The position numbers and the translations under genes were made by a program. DNA of 64,000 nucleotides from Planctomycetota bacterium (lineage in GTDB: Bacteria; Planctomycetota; UBA1135; GCA-002748355): the NCBI GenBank assembly GCA_027021385.1, contig JALUUL010000086.1:124001-188000 (forward strand), written 5' to 3'. The notes beneath the pieces are model-generated. The model saw nothing but the letters and a program-made list of their open reading frames with translations, was not told the DNA's origin and made no database searches. The first letter of the stretch is position 1. Each line of letters starts with the position of its first letter. This document shows, one piece after another, positions 20,004-61,992 of this stretch.

Positions 20004-22610
20004 ATGCGCAGATCGCCTGCCCGCACCCTTCGTTTTTCCAGGGAGGCTCCGCCCTCCTTCCTTCTCCTCGCCCTCCTCCTCCTCGCCCTCTCCTGGCTTC
20101 CGTCTTCTTGCAGCGAGGGAAGGCCTCCGCAGGTCTTCGGCAGGATCGAGGATCTCGCCCGCGGCGGGAAGTGCGCGGAGGCGAGGTCCCTGCTCGAGAC
20201 CTCCCTCCGGGACCATCCCGACTGGGATCTCCGGTATCCGAAGGCCCATGAGCGTCTCCGCTTCCTCGTCGATCGTTACACGAGGGCCTATGAGAAGGGA
20301 GAGGAATACCTCGAGGACCTGGTCCGGAAATACGGACGGAACGACGCGATCGTCGCGGCGAGATCCTGGATGGCCGGCAGCCGTGACCGCTACCTGAAGA
20401 CGGCCGTGCGGCGCCTCCTCTCGGAGCTTCCGCGGATCGCCGCGAAGGTCGAGGAATCCGGGGCGGAGGCGGGCGCCGGAGAGGCCGCCTCCGAGGACGC
20501 GGGGTCCGCGCAGGTCGGCCAGGAGGCCGAGGGACTGAGGGCCCGGGACCTCCTGGATCGGGCCCTCGACGTGATCGAGGGGCGGATCGGAGAAGAGGGT
20601 TTCGCGGTGGTCCTGGAGGAACTGCGGGCGCTTCTTCTCGAAGCGGGTTCCGAGGCCGACAAGGTCCGCGAGCGGATCTGGGCCGTGCAGGCCCGGGCGC
20701 GAAAGGCGATGAAGGCGGACATCGCCCGGGCCGAGACGCTGTGGAGGACGGAGGGGAGCGGGCCCGCCCTCTCCTTCCTCGAGGAGCGCTTGCCCCTCTA
20801 TCCGGAGCGGGGTCCCCTGGCCGGGCTTCTCCATTTGCGGGACGGGATCCTGCGGGAGACCCGTGCGGCGATCGCCAGGAAGCGGATGGCTTCGAAGCCT
20901 CCGAGGACCGGGAGTCCGGTGGCGCCCCCGCCCCGGGGAACCGGAGGGGAGAGGGGGAGCGAGCGGACGTCGACAGGGAGGACAGGCCCCATTCCTCCCC
21001 GCCCTCCCGTCTCCAAGGAGGGGGGGGATCCGATACGCGAGGGAGAAGACGCGCTGGCGCGCAGGGATTTCCGGGAGGCGGCCCGCCGCTTCGACGAGGT
21101 CGCGCGGACTCTCGAGGACGCCGCCTCCGCCGCGGCCGGGCCCTGGAGGCGGCAGGCCGACCTCTGCGGGATTCTCGCCGCCTGTCTCAAGACCCTGTCC
21201 TCCAGGATCGCGGAGAACCCGAAGCGTTTCGCCGCTCTCGACCTCGGTGGGGGCCGGAAGGGACGCCTGAAGGCCTACCGGCGCGGAGTCCTGACCTATG
21301 CGACCGAGGAGGGGGAAGAGGTCCGGGAACTCGCATCCCTGTCGGATCCCGCCCTGGCCTCCCTCTTCGAAGCGGCCGCGAAGACGGCGGGGGAGAAGGC
21401 CGCCGCCGCGTGGCTCGACCTGCGGGCGGGCAGATCCGAAGCCGCCCTCGCCCTCTGCCGGAAGGCCTGGGAGGACGAGGGAACGAGGGACCTCGTCTCC
21501 TTCCTCGTCGCCCTGTCCCGGGACGAGGTTGCCGGGCCCGGGGGGTATGAACTCGTCGGAGGGGCATTCTTCGCCCCGCGGGAGATCGAACGGATCGAGA
21601 AGCGGAAATCCCTCCTGGCCGAGATCGACCGGATCCTCCGACTCAGGGAGGACGAGGAACGGGAACGTCGCTTCACGAAGCTCCTCGAGATGGACGCCTC
21701 GCTCCTCCCGGTCCTGAGCGGAGAACTCCGAGCGCGCAGGAACGCGATCCGGAAACGTCTTTCGAACTCGAAGGTTCGCGCCTCCCTCCGGAAGCTGCGG
21801 GCGGTGCGCGAGGAACTCGACAAGCGCCGGGCGCATGCGATGGCCCTGATCTTCGATACGGAGAAATACTTCTACCCGTATCGGCCGCCGGCGGTCAGTC
21901 CGGAGAAGGCCAAGGAATACTGGAAGGTCCAGGCTGAGGTCGACCGGAGGGTCGCGGCCGTGCGGGAGGTCTGGGAGGGAAAGCAGGCGGTCGTGAGCCT
22001 TCCGAAGAAGGTCGCCGCCGAGATCGAGACCTTCCGGTGGATCGAGCGCAAGCTCCGCGATCTCGGGGAGGCTCCCCCGAAGGAGGAGGGGCTCGAGGTC
22101 CTTCTCGCCCGCGCTCGGACCGACATCCGCAACTTCGCCCTCGACGAACGCGACGCGCGGAGGATCCGAGCCGCGAACCGGATCCTCGAGGAGAACCGGA
22201 AGAAACTCGCGGCCTGGCTGGAGGAGAAGAGGGTCAGCCGGGCGGAAGCGGATCTGATCCAGATGACGAACCGCTATCGGATGATGATGGGCGTTCCGCC
22301 CCTGCGCGCGGACTCCCGTCTGATCCTCTCCAGCCACGGGCACAGCCGGGAGATGTCGAAGCTCGGCTATTTCTCGCACTTCTCGCCGAACCCGCAGCGG
22401 AAGACCCCTTCGATGCGCATGAAGCTCGCGGGCTATCCCGGAGGGGGGGGGGAGAACATCGCCCTCCATTCGAGCGTTCCCGGCGCCTTCGACGGATGGC
22501 TGCACAGTTCGGGACACCATCGCAATCTGCTGCGGCGCTCGCACAAGGATCTCGGCTGCGGGATCGTCGGCCGCTACTACACGCAGAACTTCGGAGCCGG
22601 AACGCGCTGA
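20004..22610 (+). CDS. Large lipoprotein with C-terminal CAP/SCP domain
   Basis: An 868-residue protein. The signal sequence ends in a lipobox-like LPSSC (Cys36). Residues 40-300 are helical and tetratricopeptide-like (FGRIEDLARGGKCAEARSLL), 300-345 are a Pro/Arg/Thr-rich linker, 345-400 look like another helical repeat (DALARRDFREAARRFDEVA) and 560-740 are strongly charged helices that may form coiled coil. Residues about 745-868 are a CAP domain, with TNRYRMMMGVPPLRADSRLI, a His pair in SSHGHSREM, GYFSHFSPNP, GENIALHSS and the WLHSSGHHRNLL signature. Bacterial CAP proteins are secreted or envelope-attached with mostly unknown activity; the repeats may hold it in a complex. Single gene, divergent from trkA and convergent with the acyltransferase. 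Confidence 0.8.
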   Translation: MRRSPARTLRFSREAPPSFLLLALLLLALSWLPSSCSEGRPPQVFGRIEDLARGGKCAEARSLLETSLRDHPDWDLRYPKAHERLRFLVDRYTRAYEKGEEYLEDLVRKYGRNDAIVAARSWMAGSRDRYLKTAVRRLLSELPRIAAKVEESGAEAGAGEAASEDAGSAQVGQEAEGLRARDLLDRALDVIEGRIGEEGFAVVLEELRALLLEAGSEADKVRERIWAVQARARKAMKADIARAETLWRTEGSGPALSFLEERLPLYPERGPLAGLLHLRDGILRETRAAIARKRMASKPPRTGSPVAPPPRGTGGERGSERTSTGRTGPIPPRPPVSKEGGDPIREGEDALARRDFREAARRFDEVARTLEDAASAAAGPWRRQADLCGILAACLKTLSSRIAENPKRFAALDLGGGRKGRLKAYRRGVLTYATEEGEEVRELASLSDPALASLFEAAAKTAGEKAAAAWLDLRAGRSEAALALCRKAWEDEGTRDLVSFLVALSRDEVAGPGGYELVGGAFFAPREIERIEKRKSLLAEIDRILRLREDEERERRFTKLLEMDASLLPVLSGELRARRNAIRKRLSNSKVRASLRKLRAVREELDKRRAHAMALIFDTEKYFYPYRPPAVSPEKAKEYWKVQAEVDRRVAAVREVWEGKQAVVSLPKKVAAEIETFRWIERKLRDLGEAPPKEEGLEVLLARARTDIRNFALDERDARRIRAANRILEENRKKLAAWLEEKRVSRAEADLIQMTNRYRMMMGVPPLRADSRLILSSHGHSREMSKLGYFSHFSPNPQRKTPSMRMKLAGYPGGGGENIALHSSVPGAFDGWLHSSGHHRNLLRRSHKDLGCGIVGRYYTQNFGAGTR

Positions 22611-57540: not shown

Positions 57541-57614
57541 GATTCCGCCCTTTGGGGCATGTTCTATTCAAGATTCAGTTGAACCCAAGACCCAAAAAGA
57601 GGAGTAGACTCATC

Positions 57615-57650
57615 ATGAGACATTCTCTCTCTCTCTCTCTCTCTCTCTAA
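57615..57650 (+). other. Out-of-frame start of the phase-variable gene (OFF state)
   Basis: ATG 57615 with a good ribosome binding site opens MRHS followed by Leu-Ser repeats encoded by the CT tract, and ends at TAA 57648-57650 after 11 codons. The long downstream frame continues from the tract as Lys-Asp-Lys then AGLLALGLVLGAGGL, a signal-peptide core, but reading it from this ATG needs two more bases (or four fewer). Confidence 0.75.
57625..57648. repeat. (CT)12 dinucleotide tract in the 5' coding region
   Basis: Twelve uninterrupted CT units, the only long simple repeat in the window. It sits ten bases into the reading frame from ATG 57615, the typical place of slipped-strand contingency repeats. 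Confidence 0.95.
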
Positions 57651-57681
57651 AGATAAAGCCGGGCTTCTAGCCCTCGGGCTT

Positions 57682-60243
57682 GTGCTCGGAGCCGGTGGAC
57701 TACGATCCTCCCTGCCCGCCCAGGATATCGGCAGCCGCACCCGCTTCGTGTTTCATGTTTACGTGGATCCCCTCCATGGGGACGACACGAAAGCGCGTTC
57801 GATCAGGTTTACGGGAGGGATGAATCCCACGGGAAGATTCGCGACTAACGCCGAGCGGGATTACCTTGCTCTTTCAAAACATCTTTACCACAAGAACCAG
57901 AGCAGAAAGCCCAAGGTATCGGACGGCTATCTCCAGCATGCTCCTTATGCCTTCCGTACTGTAAATGGGGCCATGCGGTACCTGGGGGATGAGTTTGGAA
58001 GCCCGAAAACTGTGTTGGGGACCTACCAACGCTGGACTGTCAATCTTCCATGGAAGAAACCCTATAGGGAAGGCGGGGATCCCGATTTGTACATCGACTA
58101 TATAGTCGTTCATTGCTTGGAAGGGATCTATGGCCCGATAAAAACCCCAAATTCTCAAGGAGAGGAGATCGACCCCAAGTCAGGCCTTCCGTATAACGGC
58201 GAAACTTTCCCCATCTATCTTCCGGATCGTGTAAGCATACAAGGAACGTCGGCGTTGTCCACTGTATTCGATGCAAGGTATGATTATGTGCCTATCATTC
58301 TCGTGGGTGAAAACTTGAATGAAAAGATCACCTATGAAGATTGCTTCATCGACAGCTTGACGATCCGAGGGGCTCGCGCGAATGAAAACAATGGGTTTCC
58401 CAATGGGGCCGGGATTCACATTTTCAGGGAGGACAATGTATACGTGGTGATCAGCAACTGCTTCATCACGGACAACTGGGTTGGGATTTCGATCGATAAC
58501 GACGATGATATTTCCAAGTACCGCCACAGCCCAATCATTGTGAACAACACCATCGCTTGGAACCGGGTGGGGATTTGGAGCGGCGACAGCTTCTACAATC
58601 AAAATAGGATTGGATACGCCTTTCCCAGGGTTTTCAACAACATCATCGATTCGGGCGACCCTTACGGGCATTTTGGACCTATAAACTCCACGGCTACCGC
58701 GCCTTTTTGGGGATTGGATACCTCCGACCTCCTGATCCGTGTCGGACCCTTGATGCTGGACTTCAATGCCTATGAGACGGCCGTGGCCAACAGCCCGAAG
58801 CCCATGAACTTTCTCCCCTTTTGGCCGGGCACTTCCCCAAGGAGTCCGGGTATCTACTCCCCGAGGGTGGATATTCGGGCATATACGCATGCGGGACTCG
58901 GTACCGCTAGAGGGAGTTTGTACATCAATGATATCTTCAGGAATTCCCAGAGTTCGGACCGTTCCCCGCACGATTTTCGATTGGCTCCCTTGGTATCCCT
59001 GGATACGAATCCTCCTTCCTCGACGGCATTGAACCCTTTGGTAAACCAGGGATATCTGACCTTTCCGATCGACTTTGCCAACAACTCTCCTTATATCTCT
59101 TACAATCCCGGCCTTCCTAGTCCCGGGTCGCAAGGGAACAAATCGGTTTCGGACTACGCGGCCCTCCATTCGATGGATTGGGATGGGGAGGGATTCGGAA
59201 ATCCCAGGATCGCGTCGCGGACCGGTTTCCAGCCCGGCCAATACAGCGATCTCGACCTGGGCGCGGACGAGATGGGCTTGACGATCGCCGCTGGATTCAT
59301 CGAAGGGACCAGGATCTTCAGCCGTAACGTCCCCAACGGAGAGGTCGGGAGTCAAAAGGGCACTCTCCCGATCACGGACCATACGCAGGTCTATTTCTTC
59401 AACCTGCCCGGGACGTATCCAAGGCCATGGTTTGTGAAATGGACGGGGAGGAACTACGTCTGGTGGGACTACGTGCAGATCCCCTCATTCACGCCCAATC
59501 CTTCGGGGAGGTATACAAAGGGCGTAACATATTCCTTTAGGAATGTTAGAATCGCTCAATCGGTTTGGGAGCCCTTCATGAAGGGGCTGGAATGCGACAC
59601 CTCCCCCCATCTCCTGCCCGACACGCATCCCTTCTGGGCGACCTATTTCGAAAGCCTGACCAGTCCGAATCCTCTCGATTACTTCGGCTCCAATCCTTGG
59701 TACCACCACAATTGGGATGACGGCGGCACTCCCCCTCAGCTCTCGGCGATAGAAACCGACAACAAGTACCTCTACTACGATCCGAATGTGTCGATCTTGC
59801 TTGAGGGAACCGCGAATCCCCCCGGATCCTGGGTTTGGACTCAGGGCTGGGGGTACCTGGGTCCCGGGCCGTATACGATCTTCGGTCCCTTCGGGTATCA
59901 GGGTTCGACGAACTACACCGTGCTTTCAAGCCCCGCGTGGGGATATGGAGATTCGGCCCCAGGCCCCGACATCATTCCGATGAACGGCTGGTCGGGGGAG
60001 CGTTACTGCCTGCAAGACCCGAACGCCCTGGTGAACCCTCTGTACAACATGCAGACCTTTCTGGGGATCAACAACGAGGATCCGACCGGCAAAGGGGCCG
60101 GGGCCAAGCAGTCGCCGAAGAAGGGCTCGGGACTTGGGGATGCCAAGAGGCTGAAGTACCTGGAGGCCTCCCTCGTCCTCGAGATGCGGGCTCGAGCGGT
60201 GAGCTACGCAAACAAGGTCTACCGGAAAAAGAGAAGGAAATGA
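57682..60243 (+). CDS. Secreted right-handed beta-helix protein, phase-variable
   Basis: An 853-codon frame that as written can only start at GTG 57682, within a signal peptide core, and so would lack the positive N-terminus. The intended product begins at ATG 57615 (see the OFF-state entry) with cleavage near SSLPAQD. The region FVFHVYVDPLHGDD ... PYAFRTVNGAMRYLG matches the start of secreted parallel beta-helix proteins, and residues about 140-330 carry the coils (YLPDRVSIQG, CFIDSLTIRGARANENN, VISNCFITDNWVGISI, IIVNNTIAWNRVGIWSG). The C-terminal half is Trp/Tyr/Pro-rich with no family match and ends in a basic tail. Base composition is clearly lower in GC than the neighbours, with normal A/T third positions, pointing to transfer. 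Surface carbohydrate binding or adhesion is a guess. Confidence 0.72.
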   Translation: MLGAGGLRSSLPAQDIGSRTRFVFHVYVDPLHGDDTKARSIRFTGGMNPTGRFATNAERDYLALSKHLYHKNQSRKPKVSDGYLQHAPYAFRTVNGAMRYLGDEFGSPKTVLGTYQRWTVNLPWKKPYREGGDPDLYIDYIVVHCLEGIYGPIKTPNSQGEEIDPKSGLPYNGETFPIYLPDRVSIQGTSALSTVFDARYDYVPIILVGENLNEKITYEDCFIDSLTIRGARANENNGFPNGAGIHIFREDNVYVVISNCFITDNWVGISIDNDDDISKYRHSPIIVNNTIAWNRVGIWSGDSFYNQNRIGYAFPRVFNNIIDSGDPYGHFGPINSTATAPFWGLDTSDLLIRVGPLMLDFNAYETAVANSPKPMNFLPFWPGTSPRSPGIYSPRVDIRAYTHAGLGTARGSLYINDIFRNSQSSDRSPHDFRLAPLVSLDTNPPSSTALNPLVNQGYLTFPIDFANNSPYISYNPGLPSPGSQGNKSVSDYAALHSMDWDGEGFGNPRIASRTGFQPGQYSDLDLGADEMGLTIAAGFIEGTRIFSRNVPNGEVGSQKGTLPITDHTQVYFFNLPGTYPRPWFVKWTGRNYVWWDYVQIPSFTPNPSGRYTKGVTYSFRNVRIAQSVWEPFMKGLECDTSPHLLPDTHPFWATYFESLTSPNPLDYFGSNPWYHHNWDDGGTPPQLSAIETDNKYLYYDPNVSILLEGTANPPGSWVWTQGWGYLGPGPYTIFGPFGYQGSTNYTVLSSPAWGYGDSAPGPDIIPMNGWSGERYCLQDPNALVNPLYNMQTFLGINNEDPTGKGAGAKQSPKKGSGLGDAKRLKYLEASLVLEMRARAVSYANKVYRKKRRK

Positions 60244-60284: not shown

Positions 60285-60318
60285 GCTCGGGCCATTCAAG
60301 GGAAGCATGGAGGCGATC

Positions 60319-61992
60319 ATGAAGGTGTTTAGGCGGAAGCATGCGCGATCCAAGGCGGCTTGTCTTGGCTTTTTCGCGCTCCCCTTTTTCTCTGTCTCTG
60401 GGGTGGCGCAAACCTCGTACAAGTTTACCCATTTCCCGGATTGGTTCATCCGGAATCCCTATACGGATGAGAGTGTCTATCAGGACGCTACAGCAGCGAT
60501 TGTATTGGACTATGACCATGATGGTTTTATTGATCTGATAATGGGTTCCCGCATTGCTTCTCTTGCCTCAGGCCAAGGGCCCTCCCCAAAAGGCCGCTGG
60601 TTGTATTTCCTTCATTTCAAGGGAGAGGGAGGAGGTAAGTTTTATTACGATTCGGCACGGAAGGCTCCTTTGCTGAATATAGCTGTGGAGAAATCATATA
60701 TCTACCAGATGGCCGGCGGTGATTTCGATGGAGACGGGGATGTTGATATTTTCGCAGGAAGGAGTATTCCACCTTTCGCTAATAGGTTTTACACTTTCGA
60801 AAAGCCTGCTCCTGACCGCCTGTTCTTGAACAACGGGAAGGGGGACTTTACCTATGCCCCGTCCGGGAGTCTGCCCGCCAACAATTTCATCACCGCCGAC
60901 TGCCGGGCCGTAGACATCGACGGGGACGGCGATCTCGACATCCTGACCGGCGTCGTCGGCGGCCTGAACCGGATCTACATCAACAACGGGAAGGGGGTCT
61001 TCAGCGACGAAAGCACGAAGCGCTTCCCGACCTCCCCCAGCCTCAACAGGTACGACACGAGCCAGATCGTCATCGGGGATGTCGATCGAGACGGGGATCC
61101 GGATCTCTTCTGGGCGACCGGGGGCTGGCTCAGTTATTGGAGCCAACAGAACGACCTCCTCCTCCTGAACGACGGGAAGGGGCGGTTCAAGCTTTCCGTC
61201 CAGCCGGATTTCAAGCAGCGCAACACAGGCGGAGGAGCCTTCGCGGACTTCGACGGGGACGGCGACCTGGACCTGGTGACGGCCTCGCAGAAGGAGCCCT
61301 CCAGGCTCTACCTGAACGACGGGAAGGGGGTGTTCAAGGACGTGACGGCGACCCGCTTCCCGAATCCGAAGGAGGAGCACTACTGGGTGCTCGCCGTGGA
61401 CGTGGACGAAGACGGGGACAAGGACATCCTCTCGGGAGGGCGCTGTCCGTTCCGGGTGTTCCTGAACGACGGGAAGGGGTACTTCAAGGAGGCGCCCGCG
61501 GCCCCGGACGCCACAACCTGGGGCTATTGCTTCAAGGCGGTGGCCGCCGACCTGGACCGGGACGGGGACATGGACATCCTCCAGCTCCCCCACAATCCGT
61601 GGCTCGCCCCTCTGCGGATCTACTACAACCTGCAACGGCAGTTCTACGTGTCTTCGAAGCGCTTCGCGCTCGGGAGGTCGGCGAGGTTCGAGGTGTATGC
61701 GGACCGGCCGCCGGCCTGGGGGGCGATCTTTCTCTCCATGAGGCCCGGGAAGCTGCGCTTTCCCGGTTTCGGGACATGGTACTTGGATGCGGCCACGAGC
61801 GTGCCGCTCTTCCCCTTCGCGATCGGCAGGTCGCAGGGGGGGAAGTACGCGGTGAGCATCCATGTGCCCAACGACAGCAGGTTGGCGAAGAAGCGGGTCT
61901 ACTGCCAGGGCTTGCTGTTCAACCTCCAGACCGGCTCGATGCAGTTCACGAACTTCACGACGAACCCGATCAAGTATTACTGGCAGAAATAG
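60319..61992 (+). CDS. Secreted FG-GAP/VCBS calcium-type beta-propeller protein (mosaic composition)
   Basis: A 557-residue protein; ATG 60319 is five bases after GGAGGC (ATG 60307 is an alternative). Signal peptide to about residue 31 (VSGVAQT). Seven calcium-type loops, among them DYDHDGFID, DFDGDGDVD, DIDGDGDLD, DVDRDGDPD, DFDGDGDLD, DVDEDGDKD and DLDRDGDMD, alternate with RLYLNDGKGVF phrases, as in a seven-bladed propeller. The last 115 residues (RFALGRSARFEV to NPIKYYWQK) form a beta domain like that of the FG-GAP protein at 7.9 kb. The first 500 bases have A/T-rich third positions, whereas from about 60830 codons end almost only in G or C, so the gene looks like a recombinant. Confidence 0.82.
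   Translation: MKVFRRKHARSKAACLGFFALPFFSVSGVAQTSYKFTHFPDWFIRNPYTDESVYQDATAAIVLDYDHDGFIDLIMGSRIASLASGQGPSPKGRWLYFLHFKGEGGGKFYYDSARKAPLLNIAVEKSYIYQMAGGDFDGDGDVDIFAGRSIPPFANRFYTFEKPAPDRLFLNNGKGDFTYAPSGSLPANNFITADCRAVDIDGDGDLDILTGVVGGLNRIYINNGKGVFSDESTKRFPTSPSLNRYDTSQIVIGDVDRDGDPDLFWATGGWLSYWSQQNDLLLLNDGKGRFKLSVQPDFKQRNTGGGAFADFDGDGDLDLVTASQKEPSRLYLNDGKGVFKDVTATRFPNPKEEHYWVLAVDVDEDGDKDILSGGRCPFRVFLNDGKGYFKEAPAAPDATTWGYCFKAVAADLDRDGDMDILQLPHNPWLAPLRIYYNLQRQFYVSSKRFALGRSARFEVYADRPPAWGAIFLSMRPGKLRFPGFGTWYLDAATSVPLFPFAIGRSQGGKYAVSIHVPNDSRLAKKRVYCQGLLFNLQTGSMQFTNFTTNPIKYYWQK

Follow-up and report, generated by a model that had tools for sequence, protein, structure and literature searches.

The question that this locus raises is whether a perfect CT repeat, lying between a start codon and the long reading frame of a predicted secreted protein, acts as an ON/OFF switch, as the original prediction proposed, or has another explanation. 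We analyzed the window (the whole 64,000-nucleotide stretch of DNA presented here), the 3.69-Mb draft genome in 86 contigs from which it derives, and homologous loci of other Planctomycetota. The elements of the locus are as follows.

57598..57604, + strand: Shine-Dalgarno-like (SD) motif AGAGGAG, 10 nt upstream of ATG57615; read from the sequence
57615..57650, + strand: OFF-state mini-ORF of 11 codons, ATG to TAA, encoding MRHSLSLSLSL; from the sequence and frame arithmetic
57624..57648, + strand: (TC)12T candidate contingency tract, perfect, 25 bp; read from the sequence
57649..57726, + strand: second portion of the signal peptide, KDK-AGLLALGLVLGAGGL-RSSLPAQD, which the downstream frame encodes and which is left out of frame with the ATG
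57682..60243, + strand: mature ORF, intact, 853 codons, belonging to an undescribed secreted protein family; supported by homologues and by purifying selection in the family

A CT tract separates the start codon from the long reading frame

The sequence confirmed the predicted AGAGGAG site, the ATG at 57615, the (CT)12 repeat and the stop in the ATG frame, which is the TAA at 57648-57650. The tract starts 9 nt past the A of ATG57615, and the frame that exits it encodes KDKAGLLALGLVLGAGGLRSSLPAQD and is open as far as 60243. The predicted length of 853 codons is obtained when this frame is counted from GTG57682. The claim that it carries the missing half of a signal peptide was borne out at 57649..57726, where an n-region, an h-region and a cleavage-like site were called by eye. 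Upstream of the tract, the long frame lacks ATG, GTG and TTG codons and offers only ATT57622.

Frame arithmetic showed that with 12 CT units ATG57615 is out of frame with the long ORF, and that 10, 13 or 16 units join the two. Thus, the gain of one unit or the loss of two restores the frame, and several ON lengths exist, both as had been anticipated. The tract is by far the longest perfect repeat of a 1-9 nt unit in the 64-kb window, the second longest being 13 bp. Two features of contingency loci are therefore present in the window gene: a perfect non-triplet tandem repeat in the 5' coding region, and a start codon that is joined to or separated from the ORF by changes in unit number, with both states represented among homologues.

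The predicted protein and its downstream neighbor

The product of the long frame belongs to an undescribed protein family for which a beta-helix is predicted. Two further features are relevant.

58090..58761, + strand: predicted right-handed beta-helix, ORF residues about 137-360; AlphaFold2 model
60307..61992, + strand: secreted FG-GAP beta-propeller gene, tract-free; Pfam FG-GAP_3 (E=2.4e-46) and conserved gene order

The AlphaFold2 model (pTM 0.83, mean pLDDT 71.8) consists of regular short beta-helix strands followed by less certain beta-rich parts. The Pfam matches of the family are to Beta_helix (PF13229) and DUF1565 (PF07602); they are weak, occur in a minority of members, and are sub-threshold for the window protein (Beta_helix, E=0.0048, 17.0 bits, gathering cut-off 25.9). 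Foldseek searches of the PDB gave no significant match (best E 0.022); most of the top-ranking structures were carbohydrate-active beta-helices and phage tailspikes. The original description as a beta-helix protein is thus supported by the predicted structure and the sub-threshold Pfam matches, but not by any family match at the curated level. Likewise, the signal peptide agrees with its designation as a surface protein, but no anchor was identified, and we infer the surface location. A PDB sequence search found no relative of the long conserved C-terminal half, and a PHROGs search found no match for the family. With the family profile, the PDB search gave nothing beyond a chance match, and a match to the NCBIfam surface-protein model LIC10774, far under the cut-off, was not used. 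The protein may bind glycans or surfaces; at the surface, it might function in adhesion or glycan binding, or serve phage or predators as a target and so be selected against.

The FG-GAP gene lies directly downstream on the same strand in the window, as it does in most of the homologous loci whose sequence extends far enough, and it is probably in one operon with the window gene. Homologous loci with this neighbor include L086, L087, L088, L090, L092, L093, L096, L097, L099, L101 and L025. In the VDPHYG subfamily, a Kelch-like gene comes next instead (L103, L105).

CT and C tracts in the paralogues of the same genome

A genome-wide scan of the 3.69-Mb assembly found only three CT/AG tracts of at least 7 units, and all three sit in signal peptides of the window gene and its paralogues (window gene, 12 units; paralogue C57, 11 units; paralogue C82, 14 units). 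Those of C57 and C82 are located directly past an SD-preceded ATG, and both are out of frame. A protein search of the genome gave six paralogues in total, including the window gene. The three that lack a CT tract have C runs in the equivalent position, namely C9 in paralogue C76, which is in frame, and C9 in paralogue C28 and C8 in paralogue C73, which are out of frame. A slippage-prone CT or C tract is therefore found in the signal-peptide codons of 6/6 paralogues, with consensus states of one ON (C76) and five OFF. Runs of nine C are frequent in the GC-rich source genome, and the C tracts of the paralogues were therefore weighed by position alone; one C tract taken alone is poor evidence for switching.

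A scan for the arrangement RBS-ATG-C8 elsewhere in the source genome revealed 13 more sites outside the family, most of which, when read by frame, lie inside genes or antisense to them. None of them matched the family in clarity, and we do not claim additional C-tract contingency genes in this genome. In the window itself, a G10 run (22443-22452, + strand) was observed late in an 868-codon gene (20004-22610) with a signal-peptide-like start. It is translated in frame as a glycine stretch, and slippage there would change the C-terminus of the product.

Tracts of different units occupy one position in homologous genes

Strong homologues, approximately 40 copies, were found in 12 of the 154 genomes of the order; in the rest of the phylum they are almost absent, with 2 partial matches among 392 genomes drawn. 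All come from draft MAGs of several separate projects and represent consensus sequences only. Their records suggest hydrothermal, groundwater and other sources, and one (DOLJORAL78) suggests a dolphin mouth, so that some carriers may be host-associated.

Using a single set of thresholds, we detected a tract between the start codon and the mature domain or motif in 30 of the 39 homologues, which come from 12 Planctomycetota genomes. Together with the paralogues, this result speaks against the possibility, raised at the outset, that related genes lack the tract. The units at this site are 1, 2, 4, 5, 7 or 8 nt long, without a multiple of three among 31 tracts, and they include mono- and dinucleotides (C8-C12, (CT)7-14), tetranucleotides ((GGAA)7-11, (GCTG)8, (CCTA)7), pentanucleotides ((CTCTT)6, (CTCTA)5-7, (GGACA)7, (CCCGT)4, (CTGCT)4, and (TCCTG)3 beside (CCTCT)4), heptamers (ACAGCCC, AACCCGC, CAGAGCC) and octamers (GCACTCAC, CCTCAGAG, CTGTCTGC). 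In most homologues an SD and ATG are immediately upstream of the tract, whatever its phase.

Some members differ in detail. In L153 (minus strand; oriented positions ~1591-1627), the (TCCTG)3 and (CCTCT)4 tracts adjoin each other within a single signal peptide, which may represent one unit in the course of replacing another. Members L061 and L073, in which the coding tract is absent or weak, have a C11 run ~150 nt upstream of the GTG start and an A11 run ~130 nt upstream of the ATG, respectively; these could act on the promoter rather than on the frame.

We compared the frequency of tracts at the site with that in the remainder of the same loci. There were 31 tracts in the 5.6 kb between start and mature motif vs 33 in 161 kb elsewhere, a 27-fold enrichment (Poisson, 3e-33). 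Trinucleotide units made up 7 of the 33 tracts outside the site and none of those inside (Fisher test on non-mononucleotide tracts, 4e-4). As a matched control, the adjacent downstream secreted propeller genes were scored, and a tract was found in 0/18 (Fisher, 1.5e-8).

Reading phase and the possibility of sequence error

Starts were assigned by hand, as an ATG with an SD. A start could be assigned in 29 tract copies, of which 24 are out of frame and 5 are in frame, a split consistent with random phase, for which one third in frame would be expected (p=0.08). In contrast, 7/7 scored tract-free copies have an in-frame start (Fisher, 9e-5 vs tract copies), these starts having been chosen by eye. 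Exceptions among the tract copies are L081, which has an alternative in-frame ATG, and L085, which has no clear start. Among the tract-free copies the exception is L065, which lacks a proper tract and is nevertheless out of frame: positions 1403-1440 contain an interrupted C-rich stretch with no in-frame ATG. This copy is a close relative (73%) of L069, a C10 copy; either its tract has decayed or the gene is locked off.

These data bear on the concern that the 12-unit consensus is an assembly or sequencing error and that the real tract has an in-frame unit number, which would leave the gene always on. The concern is a natural one for homologues taken entirely from draft MAGs and for simple repeats, which are error-prone. 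However, a gene that is always in frame is contradicted by the 24/29 tract copies that are out of frame in independent MAGs, and the out-of-frame tracts come from 12 genomes of several separate projects and have units of 1 to 8 bases. Furthermore, the neighboring genes are tract-free, and errors would not cluster in the signal peptides of one family. Even an in-frame count at the window locus would still be an unstable non-triplet tract. We consider error to be a highly unlikely explanation.

Turnover of the repeat and selection on the coding sequence

A maximum-likelihood protein tree of the family requires a minimum of 21 changes of unit type under our labels, which we read as about 20 because a C7 run was labeled separately from C. 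The presence or absence of a tract changes 7 times, and its position persists. The nearest relative of the window gene, L059, has a heptamer in place of CT, while L067, L075 and L145, which are 70-75% identical, have the GGAA unit in common in tracts of 29, 34 and 43 bp. Together with the 11, 12 and 14 CT units of the paralogues in the source genome, this demonstrates variation in tract length between genes and species, as opposed to within a strain. The turnover of units at a fixed position suggests that selection maintains a switch at this site rather than a given sequence.

The family sequences were also informative about whether these genes are decaying pseudogenes that were frameshifted at a repeat, as might be supposed from the out-of-frame consensus at the window locus and in most tract copies. 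The mature ORFs, of 700-970 codons, are stop-free in nearly all full-length copies, the two halves of the signal peptide are retained on both sides of the tract, and 5 tract copies are in frame. In addition, dN/dS between out-of-frame pairs with measurable dS was 0.13-0.33, indicating purifying selection; therefore, these copies are not pseudogenes, and we give decay no better chance than sequence error.

Another explanation is programmed recoding, in which ribosomal frameshifting or transcriptional slippage at the tract would allow every cell to make full-length protein as a constant share of the product. Some slipping of RNA polymerase or the ribosome is conceivable on C and CT tracts, and the products need not be heritable. 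However, slippery sites consisting of 5-, 7- or 8-base repeats are not known for either ribosomes or RNA polymerase, and neither the unit type nor the phase is conserved (+1 and +2 states both occur), unlike at programmed sites; recoding thus appears as improbable as the two preceding alternatives. Least probable of all, and by some distance, is a start located elsewhere, with the tract as a harmless Leu-Ser stretch or leader: ATT57622 is in the long frame directly upstream of the tract, but ATT is a very rare start, GTG57682 lacks an SD and would remove the signal peptide, and across the family ATG and SD precede the tract in any phase and the units are universally non-triplet.

A model for phase variation of the window gene

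The position of the tract in paralogues and homologues and its many non-triplet unit types support the predicted phase variation. Judged from the sequences compared here, the window locus is very likely a translational phase-variation (contingency) locus with a slipped-strand CT tract in signal-peptide codons, and slipped-strand phase variation is strongly supported for the family. At SSR contingency loci, slipped-strand mispairing alters the number of units during replication. In our model, this process would add or remove CT units in the (CT)12 tract. At 10, 13 or 16 units, the ATG would be in frame with the long ORF, so that a complete signal peptide with a beta-helix protein of 850 residues would be made and exported (ON). 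Other unit counts would lead to an early stop and a short aborted peptide (OFF), the state to which the assembled 12-unit consensus would correspond. With six paralogues, each having its own CT or C tract, cells would differ in the combination of proteins that they secrete, and six independent loci could provide up to 64 combinations per population.

The model assumes tract changes at a high rate in living cells, which we infer from the behavior of established SSR contingency loci. In other bacteria, mutS and mutL dampen slippage at mono- and dinucleotide tracts. Because the source genome encodes both mutS and mutL, the slippage rate at its mono- and dinucleotide tracts may be modest to moderate.

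Relation to known systems and a wider planctomycete phasome

Random switching of secreted proteins by repeats is best known from pathogens. In the Opa adhesins of Neisseria, CTCTT repeats in leader-peptide codons turn expression ON or OFF by reading frame (PMC3960869). Opa is the closest working analogue: it too is a multi-copy exported family with a non-triplet repeat in the signal-peptide codons of each copy (PMC3960869), and one homologue here, L076, alone has the CTCTT unit itself, whereas the window gene has CT. Unlike Opa, the family is predicted to form a beta-helix instead of an outer-membrane beta-barrel, belongs to another phylum, and has units that vary from mono- to octanucleotides; a Pfam scan for Opa beta-barrel homology found no such domain and gave only the weak Beta_helix/DUF1565 matches. 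Because the protein is unrelated and its repeat differs, the window gene is not an Opa member.

In having C tracts and tetranucleotide repeats close to the start codon, and in the proposed switching by frame, the family also resembles SSR loci of Haemophilus, Campylobacter and Helicobacter (poly-G/C, tetranucleotides). It differs from those loci in having many unit classes at one position in one set of homologues, and its carriers belong to uncultured Planctomycetota, not to host-restricted pathogens. With respect to the protein, the predicted parallel-strand coil and the weak Pfam matches of some members are as in right-handed beta-helix proteins (PF13229, PF07602), from which the window protein differs in scoring below the curated cut-offs and in having no significant Foldseek match. 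The mechanism is thus a familiar one. What is new is the protein family, the phylum, and the fact that one unit type takes the place of another at a fixed site. No earlier report of phase variation in Planctomycetota was found in the searchable literature, and a search for environmental phase variation gave nothing relevant, subscription papers and preprints being outside the scope of both.

A scan of the order for (CT)9 was positive in 42 of 154 genomes, with 0-5 tracts per genome. Thirty of these loci were read; one belongs to the window family, and about 9 more are at the starts of other signal-peptide genes. In the latter (L188, L192, L193, L195, L205, L207, L209, L213 and L215), the CT/AG tracts, near locus position 1500, have 9-17 units and are mostly out of frame. 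L213 and L215 are distantly related to each other (26%), L205 encodes an FG-GAP protein, and no Pfam match was obtained for the other CT-tract genes tested; the open frame of L193 is short, and the starts of L205 and L209 are less certain. A planctomycete phasome wider than the window family is likely from these sequences. We lean, with some reserve, towards a multi-locus, multi-family phasome in this uncultured class of Planctomycetota, in which unrelated secreted families would each have their own signal-peptide repeats, the units being constantly replaced and the switch selected.

For annotation, one consequence is that automated gene prediction will shorten such proteins in MAGs or overlook them. 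For the family, the refilling of one position by unrelated units suggests that it is the switch, and not the repeat, that selection keeps. Finally, random ON/OFF switching of secreted proteins is very probable in these uncultured planctomycetes, and a large phase-variable family in planctomycetes that are represented by metagenomes only would favor the "bias explanation" (as cited in PMC4060949), a question that becomes directly testable.
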